This document shows positions 9,289 through 16,539 of a DNA stretch of 64,000 nt, one piece after another. The position numbers were made by a program, and so were the translations under genes. Below the pieces are notes generated by a model, which saw only the letters and a list, made by a program, of their open reading frames with translations, ran no database searches and was not told where the DNA came from. This stretch comes from Acidithiobacillus ferrooxidans ATCC 23270. Its GTDB lineage: Bacteria > Pseudomonadota > Gammaproteobacteria > Acidithiobacillales > Acidithiobacillaceae. Within the stretch, counting starts at the first letter, position 1. Each line of letters starts with the position of its first letter. The stretch lies in NCBI RefSeq assembly GCF_000021485.1, contig NC_011761.1, forward strand, positions 2,896,501 to 2,960,500. The letters run 5' to 3'.

Positions 9289-9962
9289 GGCGCACGCATA
9301 TGCTGTGGCTGCTTTTGGGGTTGCCGGGCCTGGCTGTGGCGAAGGTGCCGACGCTGGCCCTCACCAGCGTCCATTTCCAGGTGATGACACATTATCGGGC
9401 GCCCAGGACGGTATTGCATGCCGACCTGCAGGCGGAGGCATCGGGGAGAAGCCCGGCGAAGTTGGCCGCCATGGTCAATCAGGACGTGTCCTGGGCAAAA
9501 GCCCGGCTGCAATCGGTGCCTGGGATTACCTGGCGTAGCGCCGGGTACCAGACGCAGGCGACAGGCCAGACCGATGCACCCTGGCTGGTACGGGAAGATC
9601 TGGCCGTGCAAAGCCCGGATCCGGCGGTGTTGCTCCCCTTGCTGGGCACGCTGCAATCCCGGTTACACTTGGTCGGGATGCAGTATGCAGCACCTTCCGT
9701 CGCTATACACAAGGCGCTGAGAACGGCCGAGCTGCGGGGACTGCGCCGGTACCGGAAACAAGCACAGCAGAATTGCACGGCGCTGGGCTACCATGGCGCG
9801 CGTCTGGGGCAGGTATTCATCAATACGAATGTCGTCCCATTGGCGCGGCCGATGCCAGTCATGGCGTTAGCCGCCAAGGTCGTCCCTGGGCCCGTAGTCG
9901 GCCGGGGCGGGACGGAAAGGGGCAGGGTAGTGGTTGAAGGAAATGCTTATTGCGAGAGGTGA
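9285..9962 (+). CDS. SIMPL (DUF541) domain periplasmic protein
   Basis: Protein of 225 residues with a Sec signal peptide (MRRTHMLWLLLGLPGLAVA, cleavage likely after residue 19). The rest has the features of the SIMPL/DUF541 family: paired Ala-rich helices (AKLAAMVNQDVSWAKARLQ), a WRSAGYQTQ strand, and the C-terminal VVVEGNAYCER that resembles the usual VxGNAYC ending. SIMPL proteins are periplasmic or outer-membrane associated (BP26, YggE); YggE is linked to oxidative stress, but the molecular function is not settled. The ATG overlaps the stop of a 28-codon frame. No downstream partner on the same strand. Confidence 0.72.
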   Translation: MRRTHMLWLLLGLPGLAVAKVPTLALTSVHFQVMTHYRAPRTVLHADLQAEASGRSPAKLAAMVNQDVSWAKARLQSVPGITWRSAGYQTQATGQTDAPWLVREDLAVQSPDPAVLLPLLGTLQSRLHLVGMQYAAPSVAIHKALRTAELRGLRRYRKQAQQNCTALGYHGARLGQVFINTNVVPLARPMPVMALAAKVVPGPVVGRGGTERGRVVVEGNAYCER

Positions 9963-10400
9963 GGTATGGAACAGCTGCCGTTCGACTCTGGAAATTCACC
10001 AGGGTCATCCACGGATTCTGTCCGATCTGGGTCTTGCTCTGGGTGATGAGGAAGAGCCTGACGTTGTAGCCCGCGAAGAACGCGGTGGCATCCTGGAAGA
10101 TGTCCATTTTCCCCAGACTCGGGGACTCGTCCATCAGCATAGAGCACGTGACAGATCACACTGGTCAGCAGGGGCAAAGCCCGTTTTTTTGGTGGTGATC
10201 ACTGAGGCTCTTTCCGTTCTGGTCCACGATCATCATGGCGATGTTCATGACATCCCTGACTTCCCATTCGGTCCCCACGCGCACCTCTTCCAGAGGATTG
10301 AAGTGGCAGCATATGAACCTCTGTGCCCATGCGGCCACTATAGGCCTCGACAAGTGACTTTCAACCCGGCAAATGCGCGAATCGCCTCATCCTGAGGCAG
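9859..10400 (-). pseudogene. Remnant of a TraG/VirD4-type conjugation coupling protein
   Basis: Pieces of one family lie in three segments on the minus strand, read from high to low coordinates. First, 10353-10165 encodes FNPLEEVRVGTEWEV followed by MIVDQNGKSLSDHHQK, matching the conserved TraG block after the Walker A region. Next, in another frame near 10177, PLLTSVICHVLYADG matches the adjoining TraG segment. Then, in a third position below 10140, LMDESPSLGKMDIFQDATAF matches the Walker B block (DE followed by PSLGK). Frameshifts and missing stretches separate the blocks and both ends are gone. This is a dead relic of a conjugative or mobilisable element. The motif order supports the call; boundaries are approximate. 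Confidence 0.7.
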
Positions 10401-10602: not shown

Positions 10603-10658
10603 ATGTCACGAGAATGTCATTCCAATTTCATCATACTGTCACAGTGTTACGTTATTCT
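10603..10658 (+). promoter_or_regulatory. Tandem Pho boxes (four PhoB half-sites) and -10 of the TonB receptor gene
   Basis: Four seven-base direct repeats occur exactly 11 bases apart: ATGTCAC at 10603, ATGTCAT at 10614, ATTTCAT at 10625 and CTGTCAC at 10636. This is the architecture of two adjacent Pho boxes (seven-base half-sites like CTGTCAT with four-base spacers). Ten bases after the last half-site stands TATTCT (10653-10658), a suitable -10 at the distance seen in PhoB-activated promoters, which lack a -35. The pattern predicts activation of the downstream receptor and phosphoesterase under phosphate limitation. PhoB itself is not in the window. Confidence 0.75.
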
Positions 10659-10711
10659 TGTCGATAAGGCAGTTAGCCACAGATACAGCATCGCGCAAGG
10701 AGATAACAGTT

Positions 10712-13018
10712 ATGATAGATTTCCATCATCGCCCACTGCTCTTGGCCCTGGCCAGCGTTGGAATGATTGCCCTGATGCCCCAGGCCTATGCGCAAGGAGA
10801 CAACGGGGAAACCGCTATTCAGGTCGGCCAAGTATCCCAAAAGGCAAAGGCTATCGCCAATAAGAAGAACGTCCCCTTAAAGGCTACCTACTCGGAGCAC
10901 GTCATTAGTGCCAAAGCGGTGCGGCGCGCCTCGCCGATGCAGAATGCCCAAACGATTCTCGCCACGAAGCCGTCGATAAACGCATACAGTACCGGTCCCA
11001 ACGGCGTGCGCAGCACCATCACCTTCCGCGCCTTCAACAGTGGGCAGTTCTCCGAGACCTTCGACGGCATCCCTCTCAATGACATGTTCAACGGCGGAGC
11101 CACGAATCAGGCATCGAATCGCAACGCCATTCCCCTGACCCTCAACGATATTTCCGGCATCAACATCTACAACGGGATCAACAATCCTTCGGTCAACTCG
11201 TACAACTCCCTAGGCGGCACCATCAATTATCAGCCGCGCAAACCGAGCAAGACCATGGGCGGGTCGGTAGGCGCAGGTTACGGCAGTTTCGGCACCTTTC
11301 AGTGGAATGCCTCATTCAACACCGGGTCCATCGACGGCTTCCGTTCTCTGTTCGCGTACAATCGGCAGACCAGCAACGGCTGGCTGCAAAATTCCGGCAA
11401 CCAGAACACCAACTACTACTACGCCGGGATCCTGCCCTACGACCACGGTATGTCCCGAATGTCGGCGTATGTGATCGTCAACCGCAACGTGGGTTATACC
11501 CCGCATAGCGTGCCGCAGGCCCTGATTTCGCAATATGGTTACAGCTACCAATGGCCGTTGAATTATTCCACCACCTCGAATACCGATACCGAACTAACGG
11601 CCATCCTGGGCGATAAGAGCGTCATCAACCGCCATGTGATCCTGGGCGCAAAGGTATACGTGCAAAACAACAACTACCATCGCACCTCCTATGCGAACCC
11701 GGCTTTCGATCAAAGTGCCACTCAGCCTTACTACCTCCCCAACCAGAGTACCGGCTATCCCTTCTGGCTCTCCTATCCAGTTCCTCCCACCTATGATCCC
11801 AGCGCCATCTTCGGGTCGACCCACTATGGCACCAATTATCACCTGTACGAAGACATCTCCAACGGCCTTGGTTTTTCCCCCAAGGCCCAGTTCCTCCTGC
11901 CGCACAATCGGGTAACTCTCGGCGGCAATGTTTCCTACGGGATGCTCCACAGTGCGGAATACTGGTACGGGTCTTATGCCATGCCGAAGGTGTCTCAGTT
12001 CAACAGTGCCTGGGATGAACATGACACTCGCCTGCTCTCATCGGTCTATATCCAGGACAACATCAGCCTGCTGGGCGGCAAGGTGCATATCACCCCGGGC
12101 ATAAAGTATCTGTATGCTTATACGACAAGCTCCGATAACATCGGCTTCTATTACCCGATCGGCGGGACCGTAGCGAACAGTCAGGCATTTACCTCTCCGA
12201 CCATTGGCATCAGCTATGTCCCCCTTCATGGCCTGAGTTTCTACGGCTCTTGGGGCCGAAACATCAAGTTCCCGAATATTGGCGCCTATTACGGCAACAT
12301 TGCCGAACAGAACAATGCCGGTCAATACGTTGTGGTACCCGTAACCGTGCAGCCGGAATATGTCACGGATTATGAACTCGGGATGCGTTACCGTCATCGG
12401 GGATTCGTGGGCAGTCTCAACGCCTATCGGGAACAGTTTCAGAATACCTTCCTCACGAACACCAATGCTTCCGGAGTGAGCAATACTTATAACGGCGGCA
12501 GTTCGCGGTACGAAGGGGCGGAATTGGCCCTGGAGCAGCGTCTCGGTCACTTCCTACTGGGCCATTGGACGGCCTTTGCGAACTACTCCTATAACCAAGC
12601 GGTATTTACCTCTTCCTTCAACTCTAGCTATGCCGGCAACGTTCTGGCCGGACAGCCCTTGGCGAATGTTCCGAAAAATATGTTCAATGTGGGCCTGGAC
12701 TGGGGATACCATCATTTGCACGCGCATATCGATGGAAAATACATTTCCAGTCAGTATATCAACCAGCAATTTGCCGGCACCCCGACCAGCCAGACCATAC
12801 CGCCCTATTTCCTGCTGAACCTGGGTGTAGAGGACACGATACCGGTCCACGCCGATTATGTGAAAAATGTGAAGTTGGCGCTGAATATCGACAACCTGCT
12901 GAATCGCCGGTATTTTCCTAAGGGTTCCAGCAATACCGATTATTATGGCAATACCTACCTATCCGTCCTGGAAGGCATGCCGCGCTTCGTGTTCGGCAGC
13001 GTGACGGTGAAGTTTTAG
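10712..13018 (+). CDS. TonB-dependent outer-membrane receptor, probably for a phosphorus compound
   Basis: Protein of 768 residues starting at the ATG at 10712, behind AAGGAGAT. The signal peptide ends around PQAYAQ (residues 23-28). A plug domain follows (residues about 55-175, with SITFRAFNSGQ-like and FDGIPLNDMF segments typical of TonB receptors). A long beta-barrel ends in VTVKF, the terminal aromatic needed for outer-membrane assembly. No ferric-siderophore signature is obvious. A standard TonB box is not clear; AIQVGQV near the mature N-terminus is a candidate. The tandem Pho boxes upstream and the secreted phosphoesterase gene 85 bases downstream suggest uptake of phosphate esters or related ligands rather than iron. 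Substrate is inferred from context only. Confidence 0.88.
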   Translation: MIDFHHRPLLLALASVGMIALMPQAYAQGDNGETAIQVGQVSQKAKAIANKKNVPLKATYSEHVISAKAVRRASPMQNAQTILATKPSINAYSTGPNGVRSTITFRAFNSGQFSETFDGIPLNDMFNGGATNQASNRNAIPLTLNDISGINIYNGINNPSVNSYNSLGGTINYQPRKPSKTMGGSVGAGYGSFGTFQWNASFNTGSIDGFRSLFAYNRQTSNGWLQNSGNQNTNYYYAGILPYDHGMSRMSAYVIVNRNVGYTPHSVPQALISQYGYSYQWPLNYSTTSNTDTELTAILGDKSVINRHVILGAKVYVQNNNYHRTSYANPAFDQSATQPYYLPNQSTGYPFWLSYPVPPTYDPSAIFGSTHYGTNYHLYEDISNGLGFSPKAQFLLPHNRVTLGGNVSYGMLHSAEYWYGSYAMPKVSQFNSAWDEHDTRLLSSVYIQDNISLLGGKVHITPGIKYLYAYTTSSDNIGFYYPIGGTVANSQAFTSPTIGISYVPLHGLSFYGSWGRNIKFPNIGAYYGNIAEQNNAGQYVVVPVTVQPEYVTDYELGMRYRHRGFVGSLNAYREQFQNTFLTNTNASGVSNTYNGGSSRYEGAELALEQRLGHFLLGHWTAFANYSYNQAVFTSSFNSSYAGNVLAGQPLANVPKNMFNVGLDWGYHHLHAHIDGKYISSQYINQQFAGTPTSQTIPPYFLLNLGVEDTIPVHADYVKNVKLALNIDNLLNRRYFPKGSSNTDYYGNTYLSVLEGMPRFVFGSVTVKF

Positions 13019-13103
13019 CATGGGAGTGGTAATAATATGAACGCGGTTGATGTGGCGGTGCATCTTTCCGCCCACTCTCGATAAATGATCAGGATATACT
13101 GCC

Positions 13104-15899
13104 GTGAAAAAATGGAATTCCATCGTAGCATTTGCTGTTGGTTCCACCGTGATGTTTTCAGTGCCGACTTTCGCCTATGTGGGGCTTTCAAATACACGCG
13201 ATATCAATGCCCCGATTCATGTCCATACGGCGAACCAGGACCGGGTGACCCATGTGTTGCCCACGGGGCGGATCGTCAGCCCCGTGGGTCTTGTCAACGG
13301 CGCCCCCAATTTTGTGACCGCGGTCGTGCCTGTGGGGCATTATGTGGCGGCCATGGCAAACGGCGCGACCCGGGCGCAGACCATTACGCTCTACAAACAG
13401 AAGACCTTGGAACAGGTGGCTGAGATCGCCGCATACAAAAAGGGTGCCCCAAAAGAGGCCCCCCTGCCTACGGACGCCACGAATCTGCGCGACAACGTCA
13501 TTGGCCATCAAAGCTTTTTTCAGGGCATGGCGGTCGGACCCGATCACACCATTTACGTTGCGGGGGGTGGCGGCAGCGACGTCGCGGCATTCACCGTTCA
13601 GGACGGTAACCTCAAACTTCTACGCCGCTATCCCCTGGCTTGGCAGCCTTTCCCCAAGGCCCAGTATCCTTATACATACCAGGGACACCATATCGGTAAG
13701 CCGCGACTCTTTTATCCGGACTCCATCGCCGTTGGGCACCGGGGTAGACACCTCTATGTGACGGGTATGCTGTCCAACAGTCTGGCCCGTATCAACCTCC
13801 AAACTGGCAAGACCGATTACCTCAATGTTGGACCCTATCCCTTCGCAGTGACTTTTGCCGATGGCGGAAAGAAGCTGGTGGTCAGCCTGTGGGGTGGTAA
13901 TGCCGTAGCGGTAGTTGATCCCGAAACCATGAGGCTGCTGGGTACGGTTCGTGTCGGACCTCCGACAGGCCCTAACAATACCCAGGCGGGTGTGCATCCG
14001 ACCGCTCTAGCGGCGGTACCCCATTCGCCCTATGTGTTCGTAGCGCTGGCCAACATCGACCGGGTGGCTGAGATCGATAGCGCCGATTTGCGGGTCAAGG
14101 GTTTCATCAACGACAGCCCCTATCCCGATGCGCCGCCGGGCAGTTATCCGGACGGATTGACCATTACGGAGGGCAATCTCTTTGTGGCCAACGCCGGCAA
14201 CAACGATGTTGCCGTCTATAACGATCAGACGGGTAAGAACCTGGGACTGATCCCCACGGGCTGGTATCCCACCGCCATCACGCATGCGCATCATGCGCTG
14301 TACATCGTCGCCGCCAAGGGTCTCGGCTCTGGTCCCAATGTGGAGCACCAGTGGGTCGGGAACATGATGGATGGTCTGGTGCAAAGAGTCCGCCTTCAGC
14401 ATCTCATGTTCCATCTTCCCGCATGGACCCAGGAAAGCCTGCAAAACGATGGCTTTACTCCCGCGCAGCAGGAGACACGTCACACAGAGGATGTGAAAAC
14501 AGACGCCTTCCTGCGCAAGCATATCCACTACGTCGTTTTCATCCTGCGCGAGAACAAAACCTTCGATGAGGATTTTGGCGATGACCAGACGGCAGGCGCC
14601 TGGGCCGATCCGCATCTGGATCTCTACGGATCCCAAGAGTTGCCGAACCTCTATCACCTCGCCCATCACAATACGCTCTTCGTGAATTTCATGGCCGACG
14701 GTGAGGTAACCGCCCAAGGCCATCAGTGGACCACATCGGCATCGGATTCGGATTTCGTGCAACGCACCTGGCCGGAGTACTACTCCGGTCGCGGACTCGT
14801 GGCCAATCCCGGCTGGACCCAATCTCTGGTTCCCGGCGGGGCGACGGGTACGGGTGGGGTGCCCCTGGGTGTCGACAATCCCTATGCCATCTATGAGAAC
14901 CTCTCGGCACTGGGCAAGTGGTCCAATCCCTGGATCAGCTTTCCGGCCCGTCTCTTTCTCTTCAACGACCTGCTGAGCCACCAGGTATCGTTCGAGGACT
15001 TCGGGGAGTTTGTCTCCCGTTCCCAAGCAGGCAACATCTCCAAGGCCATGGACCAGCATCTCGCGACGGGTTTCCCGGGCTGGGACCGGATGATCCTCGA
15101 CACCTATCGGGAAAAGATGGCGGTAAACTGGCTCAAGGCCCACCCCGGTTCGAAATTCCCGCACTTCATCTATATCTGGTTACCGGATGATCACACTGCG
15201 GGACGCAAATCCTGCTACTACACGCCGGATTACTATGTGGCCAATAATGACTATGCTACGGCAAAGTTCATTCATTATCTTTCCACGACACCCGAGTGGA
15301 GGCATATGGTGGTGTTTTTGACCGAAGACGACGCGCAGTCCGGCGCCGACCACATCAACGCCCACCGGACCTTCGCTTTGGCCATGGGACCCTGGGTGAA
15401 AAAAGGCTATCTCGAAACCAGTCTCTATTCCCAGGTGAACATCCTCAAGACCACCGAGGCCATCTTCGGCCTGCCGCCCATGTCTCAGTGGGATCAGAAT
15501 GCCGGCGTATTCTCGGGGATATGGACGAACCATCCGGACTTCGCGCCTACCCAGGTTTTGCCCATGCAGGTGCCAGTCACCTTCAATGCGGGGAAATGTG
15601 ATCACTATACGTTGCTGCGCCGCGAGGCGGGCGCCACCGGACATTACCTGACCGCCAACGAGACGGCCTGGTACAAAGAACATCAGACCCCAAACGGCGC
15701 AGGTCTTCCCGCCCCGAGCAAGGCCGACACTTATACGCCGACCACGCTGCTCAAGGTTCCCGGTCCAGAGCAGATGAAACAGGAGTGGATCGCGAGCAAG
15801 GGGCGCAAATCCTACGCGCGGGTCATGGCCTACCTCAAGGCCTATTCCGCGCAAAAAGATGCGCCGGTAAATGCCTATCAGGCCGGTGAGAAAGAATGA
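13104..15899 (+). CDS. Exported YncE-type beta-propeller fused to alkaline phosphatase-family phosphoesterase
   Basis: Protein of 931 residues with a signal peptide (MKKWNSIVAFAVGSTVMFSV..., cleavage after FA at about residue 24). Residues about 100-420 form YVTN/YncE-like propeller blades (for example VVSLWGGNAVAVVDPETMRL, LFVANAGNNDVAVYND). From about residue 475 a phosphoesterase domain begins with ILRENKTFDEDFGD, the ENxTFD signature of the phospholipase C/acid phosphatase family. It continues with IWLPDDHTAG and FLTEDDAQSGADHINAHRT, which carry the metal-binding Asp and His residues. The start is a GTG at 13104, fitting the signal peptide. It likely acts in the periplasm or outside the cell, releasing phosphate or a ligand imported by the adjacent receptor. 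The bifunctional architecture is known; the substrate is not. Confidence 0.88.
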   Translation: MKKWNSIVAFAVGSTVMFSVPTFAYVGLSNTRDINAPIHVHTANQDRVTHVLPTGRIVSPVGLVNGAPNFVTAVVPVGHYVAAMANGATRAQTITLYKQKTLEQVAEIAAYKKGAPKEAPLPTDATNLRDNVIGHQSFFQGMAVGPDHTIYVAGGGGSDVAAFTVQDGNLKLLRRYPLAWQPFPKAQYPYTYQGHHIGKPRLFYPDSIAVGHRGRHLYVTGMLSNSLARINLQTGKTDYLNVGPYPFAVTFADGGKKLVVSLWGGNAVAVVDPETMRLLGTVRVGPPTGPNNTQAGVHPTALAAVPHSPYVFVALANIDRVAEIDSADLRVKGFINDSPYPDAPPGSYPDGLTITEGNLFVANAGNNDVAVYNDQTGKNLGLIPTGWYPTAITHAHHALYIVAAKGLGSGPNVEHQWVGNMMDGLVQRVRLQHLMFHLPAWTQESLQNDGFTPAQQETRHTEDVKTDAFLRKHIHYVVFILRENKTFDEDFGDDQTAGAWADPHLDLYGSQELPNLYHLAHHNTLFVNFMADGEVTAQGHQWTTSASDSDFVQRTWPEYYSGRGLVANPGWTQSLVPGGATGTGGVPLGVDNPYAIYENLSALGKWSNPWISFPARLFLFNDLLSHQVSFEDFGEFVSRSQAGNISKAMDQHLATGFPGWDRMILDTYREKMAVNWLKAHPGSKFPHFIYIWLPDDHTAGRKSCYYTPDYYVANNDYATAKFIHYLSTTPEWRHMVVFLTEDDAQSGADHINAHRTFALAMGPWVKKGYLETSLYSQVNILKTTEAIFGLPPMSQWDQNAGVFSGIWTNHPDFAPTQVLPMQVPVTFNAGKCDHYTLLRREAGATGHYLTANETAWYKEHQTPNGAGLPAPSKADTYTPTTLLKVPGPEQMKQEWIASKGRKSYARVMAYLKAYSAQKDAPVNAYQAGEKE

Positions 15900-16462: not shown

Positions 16463-16539
16463 TGGTGGCGCTTCAGGGACTCGAACCCCGGACACGCGGA
16501 TTATGATTCCGCTGCTCTAACCAGCTGAGCTAAAGCGCC
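16463..16539 (-). tRNA. tRNA-Met (CAT anticodon)
   Basis: The minus strand folds into a complete 77-base cloverleaf. Acceptor arms GGCGCTT and AAGCGCC pair perfectly, and a D-arm with AGCTCAGCTGGTTAGAGC follows. The anticodon stem GCGGA/TCCGC encloses the loop ATCATAA, giving anticodon CAT. The T-arm contains GGTTCGAGTCC, and the CCA end is encoded in the DNA. The extended D-loop and the A at position 37 fit elongator methionine; a lysidine-modified isoleucine tRNA with the same anticodon cannot be excluded from sequence alone. An integrase stub lies just beyond its 3' end. Confidence 0.93.

Follow-up and report, generated by a model that had tools for sequence, protein, structure and literature searches.

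A TonB-dependent receptor gene and the propeller-phosphoesterase gene next to it on the chromosome of Acidithiobacillus ferrooxidans ATCC 23270 probably form a PhoB-controlled two-gene operon that scavenges phosphorus from nucleotides, a reading that we hold with moderate confidence. The window, i.e., the whole stretch of 64,000 nucleotides analysed here (NC_011761.1, positions 2,896,501 to 2,960,500), is part of a single 2,982,397-base chromosome. Predicted Pho control of the pair is well supported by its promoter sequence, and the role in phosphorus acquisition that a preliminary description had ascribed to receptor and enzyme is likewise supported. The substrate, left open in that description, is narrowed by gene context, which points to nucleotides: the closest relatives are found among nucleoside-breakdown genes, so that the pair most likely obtains phosphorus from nucleotides, rather than importing iron. 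The elements of the locus, in window coordinates, are:

10603-10642, + strand: PhoB-type box, four 7-base half-sites in an 11-bp register (by pattern score; near-identical in loci L081 and L126)
10653-10658, + strand: -10-like hexamer TATTCT, starting ten bases past the box (consensus-like only)
10697-10702, + strand: AAGGAG, ribosome-binding-site-like, ahead of the receptor ATG (read directly in the sequence)
10712-13018, + strand: TonB-dependent receptor, plug and barrel, 768 aa (by Pfam; its clade is linked to nucleoside-catabolic genes)
13104-15899, + strand: YncE-like propeller (about residues 60-431) and PF04185 phosphoesterase (about 470-820), 931 aa, GTG start (by Pfam and structure match)

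The half-sites, ATGTCAC (10603), ATGTCAT (10614), ATTTCAT (10625) and CTGTCAC (10636), are spaced by exactly 11 bp, and direct counting thus confirms the four 7-base repeats, with a -10 ten bases further on, that had been reported previously. The box agrees with four CTGTCAT units in 22 of 28 letters, the top place on both strands of the 64-kb window; none of 1,535,040 first-order Markov positions of window composition scored above 19, nor did any of the same number of positions simulated at the local AT-rich composition. PhoB-activated promoters consist of a box followed by a -10 hexamer, without a -35 partner, and the window promoter matches this layout. A search for a sigma-70 -35/-10 pair at the promoter listed none, and the same was true of a terminator-like site in the 85 bases between the end of the receptor gene and the start of the enzyme gene.

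We scanned the genome for four TGTCAY units, tolerating no more than 3 mismatches and using the pattern read backwards as a control, and obtained 13 four-unit places against 0 backward ones; the window site, with 1 mismatch, ties for the best. Two of the 13 (C1:2018240 and C1:2057396), which stay in the count, have no convincing same-strand gene behind them. The genes behind the boxes code for a PstS-like binding protein, TonB receptors, an OprD-type porin and ExbB, and one boxed operon comprises a PhoB-like protein, ExbB, TonB and a PF04185 phosphoesterase. The genome also encodes PhoB, above the NCBIfam cut-off. The earlier identification of the repeats as a Pho box is therefore upheld by an exact register beyond chance, by the excess over the backward control and by the same box at pstS-type genes.

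A scan of 17 genomes of the genus, this one included, allowed at most 2 mismatches and classed sites by the first downstream gene. The 44 strongest sites precede genes for 18 TonB receptors, 9 PhoB-like regulators, 6 PstS proteins, 4 OprD-like proteins, 1 window-type enzyme and 6 products unassigned by local profiles, one of which, a Porin_O_P phosphate porin, has its N-terminus in common with four of the others. With the pattern read backwards, 16 of the genomes yielded nothing, and G008 produced 6 matches, on the reverse strand. Those boxed PhoB-like regulators that were read adjoin ExbB/TonB genes. Pho-like control of TonB genes thus appears to be a genus-wide theme, with the window site among its best examples. 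In the 80 enzyme loci (1.25 Mb), there were 59 sites with at most 6 mismatches, against 0 with the backward pattern, and such sites lie upstream of 7 of 11 ExbB genes, 9 of 51 receptors, 3 of 78 enzymes, 0 of 10 TonB genes and 11 of 751 other genes; their rarity at relatives of the receptor and the enzyme counts against a nucleotide-scavenging pair.

Three full-length PhoB-like regulators of the same genome (G000:C1 2022379-2023032, 2057455-2058099 and 2620176-2620856; loci L100, L101 and L107) lie behind Pho-like boxes and adjoin TonB/ExbB genes or receptors. All three have lost the receiver acidic pair and lysine, with Gly replacing the phosphorylated Asp in two, and, judging from these replacements, they are possibly phosphorylation-independent. 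An island at about 2018-2060 kb of G000:C1 (L100, L105, L101) combines two propeller-phosphoesterase paralogs and further PF04185 enzymes with four receptors, TonB and ExbB; it also has several Pho-like boxes and, by appearance, phn genes. In L107 (5089-6741 and 9154-9936), a Pho-boxed TonB receptor gene is apparently split by three small ORFs, maybe an insertion sequence.

Conservation of the box at orthologous receptors, which had been suggested as a check, was found in some species and not in others. In A. sulfuriphilus (L081), where the receptor downstream is 96% identical, and in the congener G003 (L126), where the enzyme is 90% identical, box and promoter are almost the same as in the window. 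The latter genome (L178/L126) represents a natural receptor loss: box and enzyme are intact, and the receptor is cut to its last 75 residues. Retention of box and enzyme without a working receptor counts against the proposed nucleotide pair. A. ferrianus (L007) has a weak site, with 5 mismatches, 324 bp upstream, and a box is absent upstream of the orthologs in L018, L020 and L042; strong boxes do stand before various TonB receptors of the genus, at 18 of the 44 sites.

The enzyme proved to be the YncE-phosphoesterase fusion recognized in the preliminary description. The best structural match of residues 60-431 is E. coli YncE (Z 34.8, 302-309 residues, 2.5-2.8 A, 12% identity), with other propellers trailing by about 2 Z units or less; one YncE entry among the propeller matches was solved with DNA, which speaks for a nucleotide substrate. 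The following domain matches Phosphoesterase, PF04185, at 7e-9 in Pfam, and E483, N484, D488, D696, H697, D742, D743 and H750, which are conserved metal-site residues of that family, do not vary among 82 enzymes; of these motif groups, the first and the last align with AcpA. By fold, this domain (model pLDDT 71, with a long middle segment poorly modelled) is closest to non-specific phospholipase C (PLC; Z 20.0), PlcN, glycerophosphoethanolamine phosphodiesterase and AcpA (Z 17.6), and NPP nucleotide phosphodiesterases match it at Z of about 14-15. The solved structures nearest to it belong to phospholipases C, a glycerophosphodiesterase and AcpA; that no nucleotidase is among them counts against nucleotides as the substrate. 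The enzyme is predicted to be exported, on the basis of a signal-like N-terminus seen by eye and a model helix at residues 5-16, and on gene context we propose that it is a periplasmic nucleotidase.

The gene context is that of nucleoside salvage. Phosphorylases, cytidine deaminase, a nucleoside permease or a cytosine/purine permease are encoded in 11 of the 80 enzyme loci. On the enzyme tree (82 rows), all 11 fall into a 27-row clade together with the window enzyme (support 99), and 0 into the other 55 rows; the nucleoside label needs 4 changes on this tree, at least 3 of them forced by strong branches. Cytidine deaminase adjoins the enzyme in 7 MAG loci, and NUP in two. On the receptor tree (62 rows), the 34-row clade of the window receptor (support 99) takes in 15 of 15 nucleoside-linked receptors, against 0 of 28 elsewhere, where linkage means a match within 8 kb and L173, L176 and L177 are counted as unlinked. 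This tree leaves out rows of at most 600 aa (loci up to L107) or 450 aa (islands), as well as the receptors of L010, L011, L012 and L017, the same genomes being present as L171, L175, L169 and L174. Fisher values for clade against nucleoside linkage ignore relatedness. The DeoC neighbours in Planctomycetes were rejected as nucleoside evidence, as those loci hold histidine-synthesis-type genes (IGPD, aminotransferase).

Closer to the window, genes for the receptor, a PNP-like protein with a signal-like start and the enzyme follow one another on one strand in G001, G009 and G013, and in G005, where the PNP-like gene is broken; in three of these four genomes, the row is preceded by a permease and cytidine deaminase. 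A receptor fragment 83% identical to the window receptor (residues 4-486, ending at the contig end) is encoded by the last gene of a nucleoside-catabolic operon in G014, with the order permease, cytidine deaminase, DeoC, uridine-phosphorylase-like, PGM/PMM, PNP-like, receptor, several of the genes overlapping by a few bases. Enzymes 76-81% identical to that of the window are tied to nucleoside operons in congeners. The nucleoside island of G009 (L169) also has genes resembling both dihydropyrimidine dehydrogenase subunits. Elsewhere in the A. ferrooxidans genome (L167 7286-18200), a 34%-related receptor, ExbB, ExbD, TonB, a purine-type permease, an amidohydrolase, adenosine deaminase and a NUP-like gene stand in a row, likely a TonB-driven purine system, and in L028 and L039 a window-clade receptor adjoins genes for polyphosphate kinase and exopolyphosphatase, and the Pho-like sites there are weak.

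With as many as 5 mismatches allowed, no Pho-like site turned up in any of the 12 nucleoside-island stretches L166-L177; conversely, no nucleoside genes lie beside the window pair, and no relative of the exported-PNP-like protein is found in its genome. These observations, too, count against a nucleotide-scavenging pair, and from the same two facts, islands free of Pho-like sites and a window pair free of nucleoside genes, we infer that this lineage brought the module under PhoB. Under low phosphate, PhoB would turn on the receptor-enzyme pair. Nucleotides or short oligonucleotides would cross the outer membrane through the receptor, powered by TonB-ExbB-ExbD, whose genes lie elsewhere and in part behind Pho-like boxes; once in the periplasm, they would be bound or presented by the propeller, the phosphoesterase would release phosphate, and the Pst system would take it into the cell. 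In sister species, the operons that hold orthologs of the enzyme or the receptor are nucleoside-catabolic and lack a Pho box. The pair therefore resembles a nucleotide-salvage module rewired to the Pho regulon, one that would use the phosphate rather than the nucleoside. A conjugative coupling protein fragment (T4SS-DNA_transf; 9859-10140, - strand) lies just upstream of the pair and tRNA-Met (16463-16539, - strand) downstream; with such flanks, the pair may have been brought in by a mobile element.

The strongest competitor, which we nevertheless regard as unlikely, holds that the Pho-controlled pair handles other phosphoesters. The enzyme would then be a PLC-like or broad acid phosphatase/diesterase acting on glycerophosphodiesters, phospholipid head groups or phytate, the receptor would import the same compound, and the nucleoside neighbours of relatives would reflect a different specificity. 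The fold neighbours listed above speak for it, as do PLC-type genes adjoining related receptor-enzyme loci (L081, L170) and the PF04185 enzyme in the Pho-boxed operon of the same genome; however, the neighbouring PLC genes encode separate proteins, and in congeners a receptor 83% identical and enzymes 76-81% identical to those of the window go with nucleoside operons.

The ATG at 10712 is the best start for the receptor, and the assignment of this protein as TonB-dependent was substantiated by the Pfam barrel (TonB_dep_Rec_b-barrel, 6.1e-36) and Plug (2.3e-8) models, both over the cut-off. It falls below the cut-offs of the siderophore and heme subfamilies (TIGR01783, 116.8 bits vs 223.5; TIGR01785, 55 vs 316.85). 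An identification as YncD/PqqU was dropped, because that receptor led with the mixed profile A2 and was absent at E 0.001 with A3, the profile of the window's own clade; A2 mixes at least two receptor families, which limits conclusions drawn from it. It is improbable that the pair serves iron uptake, with a ferric-chelate receptor, a phosphatase supplying phosphate as an iron chelator, and control by Fur along with PhoB. The available portions of two 2008 papers do present 11 A. ferrooxidans receptors as ferri-siderophore transporters (PMC2631029, PMC2621215), uptake of iron chelated by phosphate is proposed in one of them (PMC2631029), and the solved receptor nearest to the window clade by sequence is FecA (5.8e-15). 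Yet the promoter carries a PhoB box, and its best Fur-like matches, 12 of 19 letters (reached in 0.39 of simulations) and 11 of 15 (0.22), are not above chance, on which ground Fur control of the window promoter was rejected; moreover, boxes of the genus precede PstS, the phosphate porin and TonB receptors alike, and the relatives of the receptor lie in nucleoside operons. Least of all do we expect that the box is read by a degenerate PhoB-like regulator, with a signal that may not be phosphate: the three paralogs with altered receivers and the 9 of 44 genus sites ahead of PhoB-like genes would suit this, but the same box precedes PstS (6 of 44 sites) and the Porin_O_P gene, and a true PhoB is encoded in the genome.

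Nucleotide scavenging under PhoB bears on a wider proposal, which we put forward tentatively and rate a little short of an even chance: that an acidophile clade of receptors annotated as siderophore receptors consists of TonB-dependent nucleoside/nucleotide importers which, with a nucleic-acid-binding YncE propeller-nucleotidase, make up an outer-membrane nucleotide route, here placed under PhoB, so that extracellular nucleic acid is a phosphorus source for a chemolithoautotroph. With Pho boxes ahead of 18 receptors of the genus and, in one clade, 15 receptors that have nucleoside genes next to them, a direct and testable answer to an existing puzzle presents itself: many such receptors may import phosphorus or nucleoside compounds. 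If so, the fused YncE-phosphoesterase family would gain a function, and the pair would exemplify how a salvage module can be shifted between carbon/nitrogen and phosphorus use. In biomining, the supply of phosphate is important, since iron precipitates it. The puzzle itself, many 'siderophore' receptors in acidithiobacilli despite an iron-rich habitat, is stated in the available text of the 2008 papers (PMC2631029, PMC2621215).

Several known systems resemble the window pair in part. Members of the AcpA/phospholipase C family PF04185 (2d1g, 8k3g, 9gy2) have the ENxTFD and DD...DH motifs and the alkaline-phosphatase-superfamily fold in common with the window enzyme, which, unlike them, carries its phosphoesterase behind a propeller and has the poorly modelled middle segment. 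E. coli YncE (3vgz, 3vh0), for which a DNA complex has been solved, has the propeller fold but no phosphoesterase. E. coli YncD/PqqU (6v81, 9c4o) comes first with the mixed receptor profile alone and does not do so when the profile of the window's own clade is used. Gene pairs of a beta-propeller phytase and a TonB receptor were reportedly described by Lim et al. in 2007; there, too, a phosphate-releasing propeller protein lies beside a TonB receptor, but the window enzyme has no Phytase match in Pfam at E 0.01, and its catalysis would sit in the separate PF04185 domain. The view of the preliminary description that no system of this composition had been characterised needs amending: in its available portions, PMC2631029 already links such receptors of acidithiobacilli with phosphatases, 'surface layer proteins', phn genes and PhoB-like regulators, interpreted as phosphate-chelated iron uptake. 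Its 'phosphate-associated Fe(III) uptake' clusters, from acidithiobacilli and leptospirilla, are like the window in genus and in combining a receptor, TonB/ExbBD, a 'surface layer protein' (probably the window propeller family), a phosphatase and a PhoB-like regulator; they differ in being read as iron uptake and, in the portions available, in lacking a nucleoside linkage. Neither PMC2631029 nor PMC2621215 uses the term 'pho box' in its text. Pho-controlled receptors as such are already known, as the PhoB regulon of Caulobacter crescentus includes TonB-dependent receptors, along with nucleotide-degrading enzymes (PMC11208175); the available text of that paper describes no receptor/YncE-phosphoesterase operon, and no description of such a Pho-controlled pair was found in the open-licence literature. 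The receptor/YncE-phosphoesterase pair with its nucleoside connection is a new variation on this known theme.
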